Shown here: positions 7,797-16,502 of the stretch, in pieces
Layout of the letters: every line of letters starts with the position of its first letter
How positions within the stretch are numbered: position 1 is the stretch's first letter
IMG/VR virus record: IMGVR_UViG_3300031578_007492
Span: 1 to 26,295 of that record
Strand: one strand, 5' to 3'
Length of the DNA stretch: 26,295 nt
From: a virus
The notes under the pieces: generated by a model
What the model saw: only the letters and a program-made list of their open reading frames with translations
What the model was told of the DNA's origin: nothing
Database searches by the model: none
Program-made: the position numbers and the translations under genes

Positions 7797-8564
7797 ATGA
7801 GTAGGCAAAAACCATATACTAACTATTTAGGTAAAAGATTTGGAAAATTAACAATACTGGAATTTGTTCCTGGATCTTATAAGAAAGGAGAGAAAAGCAT
7901 TCGTACCAAAGCAAAATGTGAATGTGTATGTGGATTTGTGAAATATATTGATTGGGGACATTTAAAAGGTGGCGCTATAAATTCTTGTGGTTGTTTGAGA
8001 GATCCTTCGGTGCATGTTGGACAAAAATTTGGGGGATTTATAGTATTAGAGATTATTCCACACCATTATAACAAGCAGGGAAGAAGAATACTAACTAAGG
8101 TCAAGTGTGAATGTAAGTGTGGTACAGTGAAAATAGTAAATCTTAATAATTTACAGGCAGAAAATACAATTTCTTGTGGGTGCATCGGGAGAGAAAATAT
8201 CAAAAAAGCCGCAACTAAACATGGACTATCATCCAACCCATTGTATACTCTTTGGGGACAGATAAACAAAAGGTGCTATAACACAAACATGTGTGGGTAT
8301 GAAAACTATGGCGGCAGAGGAATTACAAACTATTGGAAAGATGACGTTGTTGGGTTTGTAAAATATATTTTACAAGAATTGGGACCTAAACCAAGTAAAA
8401 AACTTACTCTAGACCGGACAAACAACGATGGAAACTATGAGCCTGGTAATTTGCGGTGGGCCACATATAAACAGCAAGCAAACAATAAAACACATGCATT
8501 TCAACGTAGAATTGAATCGTTAGAACGCAGGATAAAGTTTCTTGAAAATGCTGATAGCAAATAA
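7797..8564 (+). CDS. HNH homing-endonuclease-like protein with duplicated Cys domain
   Basis: Two tandem N-terminal copies (residues about 10-65 and 72-130) share the plan FGKL/FGGF, then a basic run, CECxCG and a closing SCGC, giving Cys-rich zinc-like modules common in phage HNH proteins. The C-terminal half has the family core YENYGGRGI (about 165-173), a Trp-Lys-Asp segment, LTLDRTNNDGNYEPGNLRWA and a QANNK end. These free-standing endonucleases cut near their own insertion point and spread by repair copying. Start: ATG 7797 with GGAGG inside a 12-bp hairpin. The low-GC content and lone position between unrelated genes fit an inserted mobile gene. Cleavage activity is unproven. Confidence 0.85.
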   Translation: MSRQKPYTNYLGKRFGKLTILEFVPGSYKKGEKSIRTKAKCECVCGFVKYIDWGHLKGGAINSCGCLRDPSVHVGQKFGGFIVLEIIPHHYNKQGRRILTKVKCECKCGTVKIVNLNNLQAENTISCGCIGRENIKKAATKHGLSSNPLYTLWGQINKRCYNTNMCGYENYGGRGITNYWKDDVVGFVKYILQELGPKPSKKLTLDRTNNDGNYEPGNLRWATYKQQANNKTHAFQRRIESLERRIKFLENADSK

Positions 8565-8583
8565 AATAATAAAACTTCAACCA

Positions 8584-8661
8584 ATGCTGCTGCCCGAAGG
8601 TCTTATATTTTACTGGGATTTTACATACGGAAAGAAGCGGAAGGTGTTAATCTGTGCTTAG
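8584..8661 (+). CDS. candidate mini-ORF 1 ending VLICA (25 aa)
   Basis: ATG 8584 to TAG 8661; an in-frame ATG at 8548 would add 12 residues and overlap the end of the HNH gene. The peptide is aromatic in the middle (LIFYWDFTY) and ends GKKRKVLICA. No Shine-Dalgarno is evident. It closely resembles mini-ORF 4 at the C-terminus (SKKRRVLICA). Confidence 0.3.
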   Translation: MLLPEGLIFYWDFTYGKKRKVLICA

Positions 8662-8746
8662 ATGGAGAATACTTAAACTTAGACAAGTTGGATGTGGGAT
8701 AAGTTATCCGATAAGTCTGAGACGAACGGTATTAATCTGTGCTTAG
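8654..8746 (+). CDS. candidate mini-ORF 2 ending VLICA (30 aa)
   Basis: The only start is GTG 8654, which lies inside repeat copy 1 and overlaps the stop of mini-ORF 1 by 8 nt. The peptide is basic (MLRWRILKLRQ at the N-terminus) and ends SLRRTVLICA. The same repeat would thus carry one ORF's end and the next one's start. Confidence 0.25.
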   Translation: MLRWRILKLRQVGCGISYPISLRRTVLICA

Positions 8747-8840
8747 AATTATCAGCTTGCGAGTCCGTTTTCATTGGCTCCCAACCCCAGCTCACAAAGC
8801 TCACTGGCAAAGAGTTAGATCGGTATTAATCTGTGCCTAG
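8739..8840 (+). CDS. candidate mini-ORF 3 ending VLICA (33 aa)
   Basis: GTG 8739 lies in repeat copy 2, overlapping mini-ORF 2's stop by 8 nt. The N-terminus MLRIISLRVRF resembles that of mini-ORF 2 in its alternating hydrophobic and Arg pattern, and the C-terminus is QRVRSVLICA. No ribosome site other than coupling is visible. Confidence 0.25.
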   Translation: MLRIISLRVRFHWLPTPAHKAHWQRVRSVLICA

Positions 8841-8866
8841 CATTTATAAAGGTTTTGATTTATCTC

Positions 8867-8935
8867 ATGGCGATTCTTTTTGTGGTTAAAAATCGTGGAC
8901 CTTCCAAAAAACGAAGAGTCTTGATCTGTGCTTAA
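8867..8935 (+). CDS. candidate mini-ORF 4 ending VLICA (22 aa)
   Basis: ATG 8867 to TAA 8935. The N-terminus is hydrophobic (MAILFVV), then basic, ending SKKRRVLICA. The stop is TAA rather than TAG and Leu is TTG rather than TTA, so the conserved peptide is kept while the DNA has drifted. Its last codons overlap the -35 box of the rnhB promoter. Confidence 0.3.
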   Translation: MAILFVVKNRGPSKKRRVLICA

Positions 8936-8949
8936 CATTGTGGTATAAT
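8921..8949 (+). promoter_or_regulatory. sigma-70-type promoter, leaderless arrangement (rnhB)
   Basis: TTGATC (8921-8926), 17-bp spacer, TATAAT (8944-8949); the ATG at 8956 begins 6 nt after the -10 box. The -35 hexamer is part of repeat copy 4, so a protein bound to the repeat would affect this promoter. This is the third case of the same geometry in the window. Confidence 0.75.
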
Positions 8950-8955
8950 TGTAGA

Positions 8956-9567
8956 ATGATTGGTGAAGTAGACCGCCGGTTCTGGAACCGGGAGAAAATG
9001 GTAGTCGGCTTTGATGAAGCTGGTCGGGGACCGATTGCTGGCGATATGTTTTTCTCCCTAGTCGAGTTATATCCTTTGAAAGATTTCCCATTCGAATTAA
9101 AAGATTCCAAGAAATATTCAGACAAAAAACGGTTTAAAATCGAAGAGGATATAAGAAACCTTGGACTAATTAAAAAATCTTTCGTAGGAACTGTACCTGT
9201 AACTGACATAAATGCTGGCAGCAACCTCAATTCTCTCTTACACAATGCGGTGTTTAATGGGCTTATGTGTATGTTGAATGGAATAAATATGCACAACGTT
9301 ATGTTGTTGGTGGATGGTAATCAGCAGATTAGAAATATGAACTATTCTTTACAGTTTGTACAACCCAAGCTGGATGAAAACAGCTGGTCATGTGCAGTTG
9401 CTTCTATATTGGCAAAGAATTCTCAGGTACGAGTTATGCATGATTTAGATAAAAAATATCCTGAGTATGGTTTTACTTCTCACAAAGGATATGGAACCAA
9501 GAAGCATTACGAAGCAATTAGGAAATATGGAACGTGCGAAGTCCACAGAGTAGGTTGGATAAAATGA
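8956..9567 (+). CDS. rnhB: ribonuclease HII
   Basis: Cuts the RNA strand of RNA-DNA hybrids and removes ribonucleotides from DNA. The signature DEAGRGPIAG begins at Asp20-Glu21; Asp120 in LLVDGNQ and probably Asp140 complete the metal site. The C-terminal block VASILAKNSQVR, YPEYGFTSHKGYGT and EVHRVGW matches the family closely. At 203 aa it is normal size. Start: ATG 8956 is favoured because a perfect TATAAT ends 6 nt upstream; ATG 8998 with GGGAG only 3 nt away is possible but leaves almost no N-terminus before the active site. It shares ATGA with the next gene. A role in primer or R-loop removal during phage replication is likely. Confidence 0.93.
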   Translation: MIGEVDRRFWNREKMVVGFDEAGRGPIAGDMFFSLVELYPLKDFPFELKDSKKYSDKKRFKIEEDIRNLGLIKKSFVGTVPVTDINAGSNLNSLLHNAVFNGLMCMLNGINMHNVMLLVDGNQQIRNMNYSLQFVQPKLDENSWSCAVASILAKNSQVRVMHDLDKKYPEYGFTSHKGYGTKKHYEAIRKYGTCEVHRVGWIK

Positions 9568-10385: not shown

Positions 10386-10578
10386 GCGTGTTGCTATAGC
10401 TATATGGCAAGCCAATCACGAAGAAAACGAAGCGGGGGATCCCGAATACGAGTTTAGAATATGGAAGCTTGAAGATCCCAACTGTTCTAGTTCCTGCGAG
10501 GTGCCGGAGTGGGAACGTGATGACTACCGAACGATGGCAAAGGCGGCAATAGTAGCCATGCTTGGAATAAATGACTAA
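10366..10578 (+). CDS. small conserved phage-type hypothetical protein (70 aa)
   Basis: The protein has the pattern IERVAIAIWQAN ... WERDDYRTMAKAAIVAML, which I recognise as a common small phage protein type of unknown role: an N-terminal helix, a variable acidic centre, and a closing helix with Tyr-Arg. It overlaps the phosphatase end. ATG 10366 has GGAAG 4 nt upstream; ATG 10378 is in frame and begins exactly at the family-like MIERV, so either start is possible. Its end overlaps the next gene by 8 nt. Confidence 0.7.
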   Translation: METNMIERVAIAIWQANHEENEAGDPEYEFRIWKLEDPNCSSSCEVPEWERDDYRTMAKAAIVAMLGIND

Positions 10579-11002
10579 AGTCTGTTGGCAAGAGTGGTTA
10601 GTATGTTTGTTGCCTGCCTTTATTGCTCGGTGGTTAATGTGGGGTTGGCTTCAATGGGTTCCTAGACCAGCATCATGGAACCCTTGGTTATTTGGGCGCA
10701 TGATGGGACGGAGACCACACAAAATGCAATGCGAAGCATTTCTAGTTGCCACTATCGACACCACTAAAATTCCCTATGAGGTAGTTGGTGCCGACATTTA
10801 TTCTGAAAGCGCTTTAAGTCTTACTCTTATTAGCAAAGGTTATTGTAATGTAGATGTATTTTCTGTGATTGGTGATAATTATGCCGACGCGAAGAAGAAA
10901 CTAATAGATAACATAGTTCACGATAGTTATTTCAAATGGGTTGTCGATGTTCTACCAGAAACTACTCAAAGAGAAATAGCAATTAAAGATATAATTGAAT
11001 GA
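10571..11002 (+). CDS. hypothetical protein with hydrophobic Trp-rich N-terminus, paralogue of 11038 gene
   Basis: Residues 5-30 are hydrophobic and Trp-rich (WLVCLLPAFIARWLMWGWLQW), possibly a membrane anchor or signal-like segment. The C-terminal 50 residues include NYADAKKKLIDN, YFKWVVDVL and end in EIAIKDIIE. These align with YKDAKKKMLN, HFSWTIKL and VVEEIIT of the gene at 11038, so the two probably arose by duplication with different N-termini. No known domain was recognised. It starts 8 nt inside the previous gene. Confidence 0.7.
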   Translation: MTKVCWQEWLVCLLPAFIARWLMWGWLQWVPRPASWNPWLFGRMMGRRPHKMQCEAFLVATIDTTKIPYEVVGADIYSESALSLTLISKGYCNVDVFSVIGDNYADAKKKLIDNIVHDSYFKWVVDVLPETTQREIAIKDIIE

Positions 11003-11037: not shown

Positions 11038-11403
11038 ATGCCGTTACCACCGGGCTCACGAAGCGGAAGATTGAATAATATTTTACCAGTGATGATTCAC
11101 CCGTATACAGTTGTAGATTGCGACCGCAAATCGGTATATTTATTGGGAACAGTAGATATATCTCAGAACCCTCCCCAGATTGTCAGAACTTTTGTTGGAA
11201 TAAAACCTGCTCATGAGTTAAAATTTAGTGGCAAATTTAGATTTTTTCAGATAATGCAAATGACCGGATACAGTTACAAAGATGCTAAAAAGAAAATGTT
11301 AAATGTTTTGTCGGACAATGAACACTTTTCTTGGACCATAAAGCTATCAAAAAATATCCAACACGATATTAATGCGTTAGTTGTTGAAGAGATTATTACT
11401 TGA
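11038..11403 (+). CDS. hypothetical protein, paralogue of the 10571 gene (121 aa)
   Basis: It has a good ribosome site (AGGAGA, 6-7 nt before the ATG). The C-terminal part carries the same DAKKK-containing helix, aromatic strand and I/V-rich end as the preceding gene, but the N-terminus lacks the hydrophobic stretch and is Pro/Gly-rich. A segment VVDCDRKSVYLLGTVD looks like a beta hairpin. Its stop codon (11401-11403) lies within a TTGACA hexamer (11400-11405) that has no well-spaced -10 partner. Function unknown. Confidence 0.7.
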   Translation: MPLPPGSRSGRLNNILPVMIHPYTVVDCDRKSVYLLGTVDISQNPPQIVRTFVGIKPAHELKFSGKFRFFQIMQMTGYSYKDAKKKMLNVLSDNEHFSWTIKLSKNIQHDINALVVEEIIT

Positions 11404-11434
11404 CAAATGTTTTCCACAGTATAAAGGGTTTGAT

Positions 11435-13714
11435 ATGAATTTTGAACTTGGTCCCCGTACAATTTTCCTAACTCTTGCCGGTTCAAGAGCTTATGGATTT
11501 GCGTCTCCAGATAGTGATTATGATTATCGTGGTGTGGCAGTGCCCCCGTTGGACACCTACATCGGAATTAAAGATAAATTCGAGCAGGCATCTGATGACA
11601 AAACTAAGCATGTTTGGACTCATTATAAAGGCATTGTTGAGCCTGAAGCAGACATGCAAGTGTACGAGGTTACAAAGTTTGTACGCCTCGCCGCCTCCTG
11701 TAACCCATCTATCATTGAAATCCTTTTTACTGATCCTAAAACTCAGTTGGTAAAACATCCGATTATGGATCGACTGTTAGATAACAAGCACCTATTTCTA
11801 TCGAAGCAAGCAAAGCCACGTTTCTGCGGTTATGCTTTGAGTCAGCTTAAACGAATTCAACGGCACAAAAGATGGTTGGACCAACCTCCAGAGAAGTGTC
11901 CGGAACGGAAAGACTTCAAACTTTCTGATAAGAAATTAATTCCTTTAGATCAACTAGGTGCTGCTGACGCTCTTATACAGCGCGAGTTGGACTCTTTTAT
12001 GGTGGAGCAAACCGACCTACCAGAGCATACCAAGATTGAATTTAAAGCTGAAATGCATAAAATTATGCGTGCCACTTGGCTGGCAATCAATGGCTCGACT
12101 CCGTATCCGGTAAATGAATTTGATGACGAAGCTGAGTGGAATTCTACCGAGCAATCATTGCGCGACATGGTTGCTAAATATGAGGGGTTTAGTGAAAATT
12201 TCCTTGAAATTCTGGGCAAAGAAAAGAAATATCGTAGAGCCAAACAAGAGTGGGATCAGTACCAGGGTTGGTTGAAGAACCGCAACCCTGATCGTGCCGA
12301 ACTGGAAAAGAAGTTCGGATACGATTGCTACTCAGATGATACTGAGTTTTTAACTGAACTGGGTTGGAAAAAGTTTGAAGATGTTTCAGATGAAGATAGA
12401 CTTGCCACTGTAAATATGTCTGATATTAGTGTGGAATATCAGCGTCCAATTGATAAATTTGCCGGAACAATTGATAGTGGTAACCTATATAATTTGCATG
12501 GAAATCATTTAGATTCTTTAGTAACGTCCAACCATCGCATGCTTTATCGTAAAATTGAGCGACGCAGCGAAAAAAAATACGATTTAAAATTAGAGGTAGC
12601 AGCTACGTTACCTGATACTTTTGAGGTTCTTAGAGCACCTTCACCTAAAAAAACAACCTATTCAAATACTGAGGCATTCGCTAGCCTTCCAGTTCCTCCG
12701 CGTGTGTATTTGAGGATTATGGGGTGGTATTTATCTGATGGTACAATGGCGTTTAAGCCGGGGCAGATACCAAAATGGGACAGTGAAGAGTTTACTTCTC
12801 GTGGACCAAAAGAAATTCGCGTGTCTCAGAAAAAAGGTGGACGTTTATGTTGGCACATAACGAGGTTTCAAAACAAATGGGGAAATAAAGTTAATAGTTC
12901 GTTGTATGAATATACAAATCCTCCCAACGGATTTCGTAAGAAAGCGATCCAAGAGAAGATTCTGTCCATCAGAAATAAAACTATAGTATGGCGCATGGTG
13001 AATGATTGTGGTTTTAAGAAGGGTAAAAGAATACCAAGGTGGGCATTTACTCTTTCCAAAAGGTTGATGGACATATTGTTGGAAGCTTTACATCGCGGTG
13101 ACGGTACGGACAGACCGGATGGAGGTCAGATTTACTACAGTTCATTAAAAGGTTTGGCTGACGATGTGCAAGAACTAGCCCTAATGTGTGGTTATGAAAC
13201 CTCCCTATATGGACCTTATAATGGGATATATCAAGTACACATCAACAAAACACGGGAGCAGTTTAAAAAATGTATTAGATCGCATAATGTTAAAAAAGTT
13301 CCGGTGGACTCTAACTATCGTGTCGTGTGTTTTACAGTTCCCAACGGCACTTTAATAACTCGTAGAAACGGGCATATTGGAATTCACGGTAATTCAAAGC
13401 ACGCCTGCCATTTGGTAAGGCTTATCAGAATGGCTCGTGAGATTTTAGAATCGGGCGAGGTAAATGTGTACCGTCCAGACGCTGAGGAATTAAGAGACAT
13501 TCGTGCAGGTGCGTGGACGTATGAACAAATTGTTGAATTTGCCGAAAAAGAAGACGTTACGCTTGTTGAGGTGGCGAAGAACTCAAAATTACCAAAAGTA
13601 CCTGATATAAATATGATACATGAGTTAGTTCATGGAATTGTAGTGGATTTTAATGAAGAATTTAATGAAGAATTTAAAACAAAAAATAGCCCCAGCTTTA
13701 AATCAAAACAATAA
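11435..13714 (+). CDS. RlaP-type nucleotidyltransferase interrupted by an intein
   Basis: The extein is a polymerase-beta-like nucleotidyltransferase of the RlaP family (associated elsewhere with RNA repair). The core is LAGSRAYGFASPDSDYDYRG, with Gly16-Ser17 and metal-binding Asp28 and Asp30. The later conserved YD / KHACHLVRLIRMAREIL motif is split: Tyr296-Asp297 precede an intein at residues 298-653 and Ser654-Lys-His follows. The full product is 759 aa and the spliced one would be 403. Start: ATG 11435, six bases after AAAGGG; the longer frame from 11381 would overlap the upstream gene. Its end overlaps the next gene by 62 nt. The substrate in this phage is unknown. Confidence 0.88.
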   Translation: MNFELGPRTIFLTLAGSRAYGFASPDSDYDYRGVAVPPLDTYIGIKDKFEQASDDKTKHVWTHYKGIVEPEADMQVYEVTKFVRLAASCNPSIIEILFTDPKTQLVKHPIMDRLLDNKHLFLSKQAKPRFCGYALSQLKRIQRHKRWLDQPPEKCPERKDFKLSDKKLIPLDQLGAADALIQRELDSFMVEQTDLPEHTKIEFKAEMHKIMRATWLAINGSTPYPVNEFDDEAEWNSTEQSLRDMVAKYEGFSENFLEILGKEKKYRRAKQEWDQYQGWLKNRNPDRAELEKKFGYDCYSDDTEFLTELGWKKFEDVSDEDRLATVNMSDISVEYQRPIDKFAGTIDSGNLYNLHGNHLDSLVTSNHRMLYRKIERRSEKKYDLKLEVAATLPDTFEVLRAPSPKKTTYSNTEAFASLPVPPRVYLRIMGWYLSDGTMAFKPGQIPKWDSEEFTSRGPKEIRVSQKKGGRLCWHITRFQNKWGNKVNSSLYEYTNPPNGFRKKAIQEKILSIRNKTIVWRMVNDCGFKKGKRIPRWAFTLSKRLMDILLEALHRGDGTDRPDGGQIYYSSLKGLADDVQELALMCGYETSLYGPYNGIYQVHINKTREQFKKCIRSHNVKKVPVDSNYRVVCFTVPNGTLITRRNGHIGIHGNSKHACHLVRLIRMAREILESGEVNVYRPDAEELRDIRAGAWTYEQIVEFAEKEDVTLVEVAKNSKLPKVPDINMIHELVHGIVVDFNEEFNEEFKTKNSPSFKSKQ
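12326..13393 (+). mobile_element. intein with LAGLIDADG homing endonuclease domain (356 aa)
   Basis: The splice block starts at Cys298 with SDDTEFLTELGWKKFEDV (block A); block B is VTSNH with His367. Two LAGLIDADG-type motifs follow: RIMGWYLSDGT (residues 427-437) and DILLEALHRGDGT (546-558), whose Asp residues (435, 556) would bind metal. The C-terminal block is GHIGIHGN ending at Asn653, followed by Ser654 as the +1 nucleophile. The penultimate residue is Gly, with His one place earlier, instead of the usual His-Asn. The endonuclease looks intact, so this is probably an active or recently active element. Boundaries are inferred from the intein motifs and the rejoined host motif. Confidence 0.88.
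13649..13672 (+). repeat. 12-nt tandem repeat spanning a gene overlap
   Basis: TTTAATGAAGAA occurs twice in a row. In the upstream gene it encodes a repeated NEEF motif; in the downstream frame it gives two start codons (13653 and 13665) and a repeated MKNL. The duplication therefore changes both proteins at once. Confidence 0.85.
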
Positions 13715-15373: not shown

Positions 15374-16209
15374 TGAGTCGATGGCGACCTACAAACGCAT
15401 GCACGTACGTAATTCCTGACATTCATGGGAAGTACGATTGCTTACGAGCCATCTGCAAGCGCATCCTTCCTCTGCGTGATTCGGATAAGATTATATTTCT
15501 TGGCGATTATATAGATCGTGGACCGGATTCTGCCAAGGTGGTGGAATATGTTATAACTTTAGTTAAGAAATTTGGCGACAGGGTTATACCTTTAATTGGT
15601 AATCATGAATGGTTAATGCTGGCGGCTATTGGAGAAATTGCTCACAATTGGGAGAAAGATTTACCTTCTCCTTTTGCCGTTTGGATGCAAGAAGGTGGTA
15701 GGAAAACTGTCGAGTCCTATGCCAAAACTACCAGTATAGATCTCAGCGATACGCTCTCTCTACCTCCAGAGAGAGTAAGCGATTTAATATCAAAACATCA
15801 TATTGATTTTTTAAAGAATGAAACATATTTGTATTATGAGACCAACGATTGTATTTTTGTTCATGGAGGGTGTGATCCAACGCAACCGTTAGATCCATCG
15901 TGGATGGAAACTTTTATTTGGGATCGTTCTCTTTTTCAGATGGCTAAAAGTTTTGTATCTGCCGGCAAAGAAATTCCCTGGGACAAGACGGTTATTTGTG
16001 GACATAGCTCTAACGGTCCTTGGGTTAATGAAAAATTAATGATGTTAGACTGTTCTGCTTCCAAAAAACTAATGGTGCTGGAGCTTAGCTCAATGGAGGC
16101 TTTTACAGTGAGCCCTGGAAATGTTAGGCTGGAACGTTTGGATTTAAAAGAAGGTCAGAACCAAGTTAAAACAAAAATTCGCAAGTCTACATTTCGACGT
16201 GTGCAATGA
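15373..16209 (+). CDS. PP1/lambda-type metallophosphatase
   Basis: Calcineurin-like Ser/Thr phosphatase fold with the full metal-site signature: DIHG (Asp16, His18), GDYIDRG (residues 44-50), GNHEW (Asn77, His78), then FVHGG and ICGHSS with the later metal-binding His residues. The order and spacing resemble the lambda phage protein phosphatase and bacterial PrpA/ApaH-type enzymes. The 278-residue length fits ApaH-like or phage PPases with a short C-terminal tail, which here is Lys/Arg-rich. The start is GTG 15373, as no ATG precedes the DIHG motif. It may dephosphorylate host proteins or Ap4A-type nucleotides; the sequence alone does not decide. Confidence 0.9.
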   Translation: MSRWRPTNACTYVIPDIHGKYDCLRAICKRILPLRDSDKIIFLGDYIDRGPDSAKVVEYVITLVKKFGDRVIPLIGNHEWLMLAAIGEIAHNWEKDLPSPFAVWMQEGGRKTVESYAKTTSIDLSDTLSLPPERVSDLISKHHIDFLKNETYLYYETNDCIFVHGGCDPTQPLDPSWMETFIWDRSLFQMAKSFVSAGKEIPWDKTVICGHSSNGPWVNEKLMMLDCSASKKLMVLELSSMEAFTVSPGNVRLERLDLKEGQNQVKTKIRKSTFRRVQ

Positions 16210-16502
16210 AAAAGTTATTAAAATTGAAAAAGTTATTAAAATTAAATGCCGACGGGATACGAAAGTGGAGTCCGGAATTGGCAGACAATTTATTATCGCA
16301 TAATTTTGTAAAGAAGACGGAACAATTTTTTAATAATAATGATTTTACTATTGACGTAGAATGCAATAGGTGTGGAGAAGAGGTAGCTTTAGGTACTGAT
16401 AATAATAACAATACAGAATTTAAAACAGAAAGAGATGTAACATACGCTTGGGGAGAGCTACTCAGTTGTAAAGAAACTATTGTTAAAGAAATATTGGAAT
16501 AG
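16206..16502 (+). CDS. small hypothetical protein with CxxC (98 aa)
   Basis: The ATG overlaps the phosphatase stop (ATGA). The N-terminus MKKLLKLKKLLKL is an exact duplication of a KKLLKL unit, produced by an 18-nt tandem repeat (16209-16226 and 16227-16244), and would form a cationic amphipathic helix. A lone CNRCGEE pair lies near residue 54 and an Asn run near 66. It ends 2 nt before the topoisomerase gene. No function recognised. Confidence 0.6.
   Translation: MKKLLKLKKLLKLNADGIRKWSPELADNLLSHNFVKKTEQFFNNNDFTIDVECNRCGEEVALGTDNNNNTEFKTERDVTYAWGELLSCKETIVKEILE
16209..16244 (+). repeat. 18-nt tandem duplication
   Basis: AAAAAGTTATTAAAATTG is followed by an identical unit except for a final A. 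It doubles the KKLLKL peptide unit at the N-terminus of the 98-residue protein and looks like a recent slippage event. Confidence 0.85.

Follow-up and report, generated by a model that had tools for sequence, protein, structure and literature searches.

A phage array of short reading frames with a common C-terminal tag and partial capsid-protein homology

Introduction

Does the repeat array at positions 8548–8935 of this phage genome fragment act as DNA or RNA, or does it encode a family of small proteins, and what might such proteins do? The window (the whole stretch of viral DNA analysed here, 26,295 nt) had been described in preliminary form as possibly carrying micropeptides with a shared C-terminal tag, and a regulatory DNA or RNA element was named as the alternative. 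Here we describe the array, its counterparts in other phages and its relation to the major capsid protein (MCP). The MCP of the window phage itself lies outside this 26-kb record.

Results

Four tagged micro-ORFs in the window

The four repeat copies lie on the + strand about 90 nt apart, as had been stated (start to start 85, 94 and 95), and each encodes VLICA followed by a stop codon: tag 1 at 8644–8661 (GTG TTA ATC TGT GCT TAG), tag 2 at 8729–8746 (GTA TTA ATC TGT GCT TAG), tag 3 at 8823–8840 (GTA TTA ATC TGT GCC TAG) and tag 4 at 8918–8935 (GTC TTG ATC TGT GCT TAA). Within three mismatches the window holds no further match to the repeat, and shuffled sequences gave a mean of 0.53 matches, none reaching four. 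The spacers show no resemblance to each other, in keeping with the earlier report of unrelated DNA between the copies. All four variable columns of the consensus GTN TTR ATC TGT GCY TAR are indeed third codon positions, and the basic residues noted before each VLICA (GKKRK, SLRRT, QRVRS and SKKRR) are present.

Each tag closes a short reading frame on the + strand. W1 (8548–8661) encodes 37 residues, MLIANKIIKLQPMLLPEGLIFYWDFTYGKKRKVLICA, before the stop; W2 (8654–8746, 30 aa, ending RRTVLICA) and W3 (8739–8840, 33 aa, ending RVRSVLICA) begin with GTG codons within tags 1 and 2, respectively, which bears out the reported starts inside the previous repeat and places them at 8654 and 8739; W4 (8867–8935, 22 aa, ending KKRRVLICA) begins with ATG. 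The sizes of 22–33 residues given in the preliminary description hold for W2–W4, with a small correction for W1, which has 37 residues from the ATG at 8548 or 25 from an internal ATG.

Tagged units in a large relative

The relative G001, a 458,729-bp phage contig that was scanned in full, shares with the window RNase HII (66% identity), the 506-aa gene (79%) and a nucleotidyltransferase (81%). It contains 15 ORFs ending in [RKN][RTKS][VTI]xICA-stop, three of them on the + strand (166900, 206393 and 206526) and the others on the − strand, at 419237, in a cluster of six (438342–439707) and in a cluster of five (454999–457016). The units are ORFs of 16–100 residues, many of which restart inside the preceding tag; their spacing is 85–95 nt in the window and from 47 to more than 500 nt in the G001 clusters.

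The ortholog of W1 is the G001 unit at 166811–166900, hereafter G166, which matches it in position, as both follow the 506-aa gene, and aligns with it at the protein level (QPM.LP.GLIF). The two differ at 8, 7 and 19 first, second and third codon positions, respectively, with dS saturated. G001 has one unit at the locus where the window has four, and the 3′ flank of G166 resembles that of window copy 4 (TTGATT..TATGAT..ATG), which fits a gain or loss of units between tags. In the window, an HNH endonuclease gene (7797–8564) follows the 506-aa gene and precedes the array; G001 has no HNH gene at this locus, and G166 begins at the end of its 505-aa gene. The RlaP-like nucleotidyltransferase in the window (11381–13714) is 777 aa long, versus 392 aa in L016, owing to an in-frame insertion that G001 lacks and that resembles an intein, beginning CYSDDTEFL and finishing GIHGN before S.

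Among phages related by terminase, ORFs ending in ICA occurred at chance level only, the terminase-based scan of genome contigs yielded no relative, and exact-motif matches in other viral contigs were single chance matches with no arrays. A phage tmRNA bearing a similar tag was considered and rejected, as neither the window nor G001 contains a tmRNA. At L063 11588–11662 (about 451.6 kb in G001), ARAGORN reported a tRNA that may be an ochre suppressor, its anticodon being TTA.

A second, larger C-terminal tag, of the kind I[KR][DE]II[EKT]-stop, ends about 96 of 823 ORFs in G001, with differing N-terminal parts. It occurs at G001 loci L041–L063 (for example 36–48 kb) and in the window at 10571–11002, 11038–11403 and 16206–16502; IIE is the top ORF end in the phage G020 (98 cases).

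The tag is conserved as protein

The argument of the preliminary description that shared codon phase among the variable columns would arise about once in 27 times is weak alone, and gains from the 15 further copies in G001, all in frame and all retaining ICA-stop. None of these copies is frameshifted, and none carries a non-synonymous substitution within I-C-A-stop. When the 19 tags of the window and G001 were pooled, the pairwise codon differences in I-C-A-stop comprised 401 synonymous and 0 non-synonymous changes, with ATC, ATT and ATA used for Ile, TGT and TGC for Cys, all four Ala codons and all three stops. With a PSSM that allows substitutions, the tags scored at least 18.9 and the rest of the 21,109 ORF ends in G001 at most 10.2, with no near-miss variants; because of this gap, the invariance of I-C-A-stop is not purely an artefact of the search. 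The frames upstream of the tags are open for 31–101 codons, as compared to a mean of 15 at other stops, and the combined P of about 6.5e-10 may be inflated by overlap with other genes. These codon patterns support translation of the units as predicted proteins, and the in-frame copies in G001, with their synonymous variation, uphold the proposed family with a common C-terminal tag.

If the array were a promoter, binding site or RNA helix that merely resembles coding sequence, the conserved codons would not be expected to vary synonymously or to use all three stops. Neither consensus RNA structure nor covariation was found among the tags, and an Rfam search gave no family match. A sigma-70-like promoter does lie at 8921–8949 on the + strand (TTGATC-17-TATAAT, with TG before the −10), its −35 overlapping tag 4, and it probably drives RNase HII (ATG at 8956) with almost no leader. 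However, among the four tags a −10 stands at the right distance at copy 4 only, so that this promoter fails to explain the repeat. The further copies, in G001 and in G020 (see below), already contradict the alternative of a regulatory element, which fails as judged from these sequences and keeps next to no probability.

Capsid protein segments in the tagged units

The likeness of W1 to gp23, the T4-type MCP, was put forward as a prediction before testing. With a profile built from five T4-type MCPs (LR756511 left out) and searched against six-frame ORF sets, W1 was the best of all window ORFs (E = 5.9e-8; next 0.71) and G166 the best of all G001 ORFs (0.0011; next 8.3). The T4-type segment comprises residues 2–31 of W1, which matches residues 106–134 of T4 gp23. 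By tblastn, W1 matched 331 phage records (best E 2e-4), the annotated top rows being mostly MCPs, and G166 matched 295, with annotated hits again mostly MCPs. The one PHROG family matched by W1 was phrog_138, major head protein (0.028), which G166 matched as well (0.6), while PDB searches with W1 and G166 gave no matches. Another G001 unit, 439707, is a probable T4-type segment (E about 0.004–0.02 against six sequences); searches of the remaining tagged N-terminal parts against PHROGs, Pfam and by tblastn returned nothing convincing.

The shell of G001 is of another type. Its MCP is a 359-aa ORF (PHROG 2522 at 1.1e-78; PDB 6wkk at 8e-94) with 52% identity to gp27 of Bacillus phage G, and the T4-type pieces are therefore foreign to G001. 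When the tag-stripped parts were compared with all G001 ORFs by phmmer, unit 439096 matched this MCP at 1.4e-12. Against an own-type profile of about 79 related MCPs, 439096 scored 9e-14 (MCP 147–179, 22 of 33 residues identical) and 438913 scored 0.027 (MCP 175–203), and these two tagged units were the only non-MCP ORFs of G001 below E = 1. A unit carrying segment 147–179 is missing from most relatives with a G001-type MCP. The fragments have diverged from their own MCP, with 22/33, 13/29 and 15/33 identities.

Altogether, MCP homology is detectable in about one-third of the tagged units, and in the window in W1 only; no homologs of the N-terminal parts of W2, W3 and W4 were found. The matched segments span 12–57 residues, short of a complete HK97-fold shell-building domain, and such short matches carry modest E-values. 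Split MCP reading frames were observed in two relatives, G017 (L275) and G016 (219.8–221.9 kb); those in G017 are flanked by LAGLIDADG-like ORFs, suggesting introns in the capsid gene.

Sister tags and capsid fragments in other lineages

In G020 (435,004 bp; MCP 83% identical), 11 micro-ORFs share an ending that is sister to this tag, F[LIMF][VIL]CA-stop, and that likewise varies synonymously. The tags are thus lineage-specific, R-[RT]-[VTI]-x-I-C-A in the window and G001 and F-[LI]-V-C-A in G020. Five of the G020 units stand head to tail within 0.7 kb with overlapping starts, for example GTATGTGCATAA. Units 145940, 145797 and 145684 correspond to MCP 75–102, 149–179 and 186–202 and are collinear with it; with the own-type profile, 145797 was the top non-MCP match in G020 (3e-5) and 145940 the third (0.26). 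Orthology connects 145797 with 439096 of G001 (E about 1e-9), 142081 with 419237 of G001 (3e-4) and 155738 with a protein of the phage G033 (1e-7). Unit 154034 resembles W1, and tblastn with 154034 found no MCPs. G020 also has an untagged 124-aa ORF (392949–393323) with an MCP segment around residues 90–119 (E = 0.034).

In G033 (268 kb), three adjoining proteins of 64, 60 and 214 aa carry MCP segments at 0.0028, 9e-6 and 2e-29. They share an N-terminal motif like MKxPLVIxxxGKL in place of a C-terminal tag, and their segments are not arranged in MCP order. In the cultured Tunturiibacter phage Tunturi_5, gp172 (L211 2309–2602) is an untagged small protein with an MCP segment, RRVTVPTFEIASMPMISIADIKRRRFEV; its start resembles a twin-arginine signal, and the MCP segment follows it.

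Discussion

Judging by these comparisons, the units very probably are translated, tagged and partly capsid-derived microproteins. As the best explanation overall, to which we give a probability of roughly 45%, the array consists of four tagged microproteins of a capsid-mimic family that interferes with capsids. The interference itself is suggested by homology, and we hold it somewhat below even odds. The capsid segment would serve as bait, binding capsid protein from co-infecting phages and possibly, at high dose, the phage's own, and would thereby poison or delay the assembly of shells. The tail, which all units share, could be a handle for one partner, such as a protease (the preliminary description pointed to ClpP), an unfoldase or an anchoring protein. 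That T4-type pieces occur in a lineage whose full-length relative has another capsid favours action on the capsids of other phages over self-protection. On the other hand, about two-thirds of the tagged units, including W2, W3 and W4, have no detectable capsid homology, own-type segments could damage the phage's own assembly, and the MCP order kept in the G020 and G001 units also fits a broken extra MCP gene. More broadly, it is conceivable, at a little under an even chance, that huge phages carry capsid-epitope libraries, in which a tag repeat alternates with own or foreign MCP segments that block competitors or sensors; that the tag differs by lineage and may be C-terminal or N-terminal belongs to the same tentative proposal.

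The fragments might instead be decoys that are made ahead of the real capsid and occupy host sensors of newly made capsid protein, such as Lit or CapRel, and leave them untriggered. Immune triggering by capsid protein is known: a 29-residue region of gp23, Gol, which is its most conserved region, defines this function and suffices to act with Lit (PMC3014915), and CapRel is triggered through direct capsid binding (PMC9712102). Since Gol alone acts with Lit and capsid triggers CapRel, the proposal deserves consideration, the more so as W1 spans gp23 106–134 and the arrays are located among non-structural genes. We nevertheless consider it doubtful, because a Gol-like peptide is expected to activate Lit rather than block it, a sensor reads one surface while the segments span many parts of the MCP, and T4-type segments would give no protection to a phage with a phage-G-type shell. 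The T4-type segments make no sense, either, if the units are accessory factors that bind the nascent own MCP as chaperones or timers, with a tail mimicking the MCP C-terminus. The likeness of the tails serves as a lead only: the MCP family ends in G[RN]KS[VT][VI]IGA-stop (for example GRKSVVIGA), which resembles the tag but has Gly at the Cys position; by PSSM, the MCP ranks second among all non-tag ORF ends of G001; and the tags fall in the top 3% of G001 ORF ends by likeness to the MCP tail (median rank 166 of 16,375). As all this reflects one shared motif, it counts as one observation; the likeness is less marked in G020, with a median rank of 817 among 15,381 ORF ends, and the own-type unit is absent from most relatives that have this MCP, which makes a role in the phage's own shell improbable.

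Decay of a duplicate MCP gene, whose fragments stay open by chance, would account for the collinear order in G020 and G001 and for the divergence of the fragments from their own MCP. It is quite improbable in view of the exclusively synonymous changes in I-C-A-stop across 19 copies, the third-position bias between W1 and G166 and the conservation of the 145797–439096 pair across two phages; moreover, the G033 segments are out of MCP order and T4-type pieces occur. We regard it as very improbable that the units are leader peptides whose tail, in the exit tunnel at the stop, sets translation of the next ORF by ribosome arrest or re-initiation. The next start often overlaps the tag (as GTG, ATG or ATGA), and arrest peptides can carry short C-terminal motifs (PMC10987492); but some next starts show no overlap, the downstream genes are unrelated, promoter-like sequence follows copy 4 and G166, and neither the capsid homology nor the long N-terminal parts are explained. 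Capsid interference stays our preferred reading.

If they are made, the microproteins would be a new kind of phage gene, encoding short tagged capsid pieces, some from another lineage than the one that supplies the phage's own shell, and would point to a previously undescribed interference with the shell proteins themselves or the way they are detected. Given that capsid protein is both the competitors' building block and an immunity trigger, the arrays offer ready-made peptides for tests of interference and capsid sensing. Genes below 50 codons, which annotation usually passes over, can thus hold strong, testable signals. We found no description of VLICA or capsid-fragment microproteins in the literature searched, mainly papers available without subscription.

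Among known systems, Gol of T4 gp23, which acts in Lit exclusion, is a precedent for a short capsid segment that is active by itself. W1 and G166 are homologous to a gp23 stretch, the correspondence with Gol being putative; Gol, however, is part of full-length gp23, whereas W1 is a stand-alone tagged microprotein and the capsid of its relative is of a different type. CapRel-type defence likewise makes capsid protein an intracellular molecular signal, but CapRel is a host sensor, while here the phage encodes the capsid fragments. In architecture the array recalls CRISPR, in that repeats alternate with unique segments drawn from phage genes, some of these segments seemingly foreign; in contrast to the near-identical, evenly spaced DNA repeats of CRISPR, these repeats are conserved as protein and not identical as DNA, and unlike spacers the segments are reading frames that are very probably translated. 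The tags resemble ssrA/ClpX degrons in their short hydrophobic C-terminal tail, preceding basic residues and terminal Ala, yet ssrA ends in LAA, whereas every one of the 30 tags finishes with CA, in most cases as ICA or VCA, and has an invariant Cys. Finally, Fv1 and enJSRV Gag are capsid-derived restriction factors that block viruses. They share their capsid origin with the present units, but they are host genes with near-complete domains rather than phage-borne tagged fragments.
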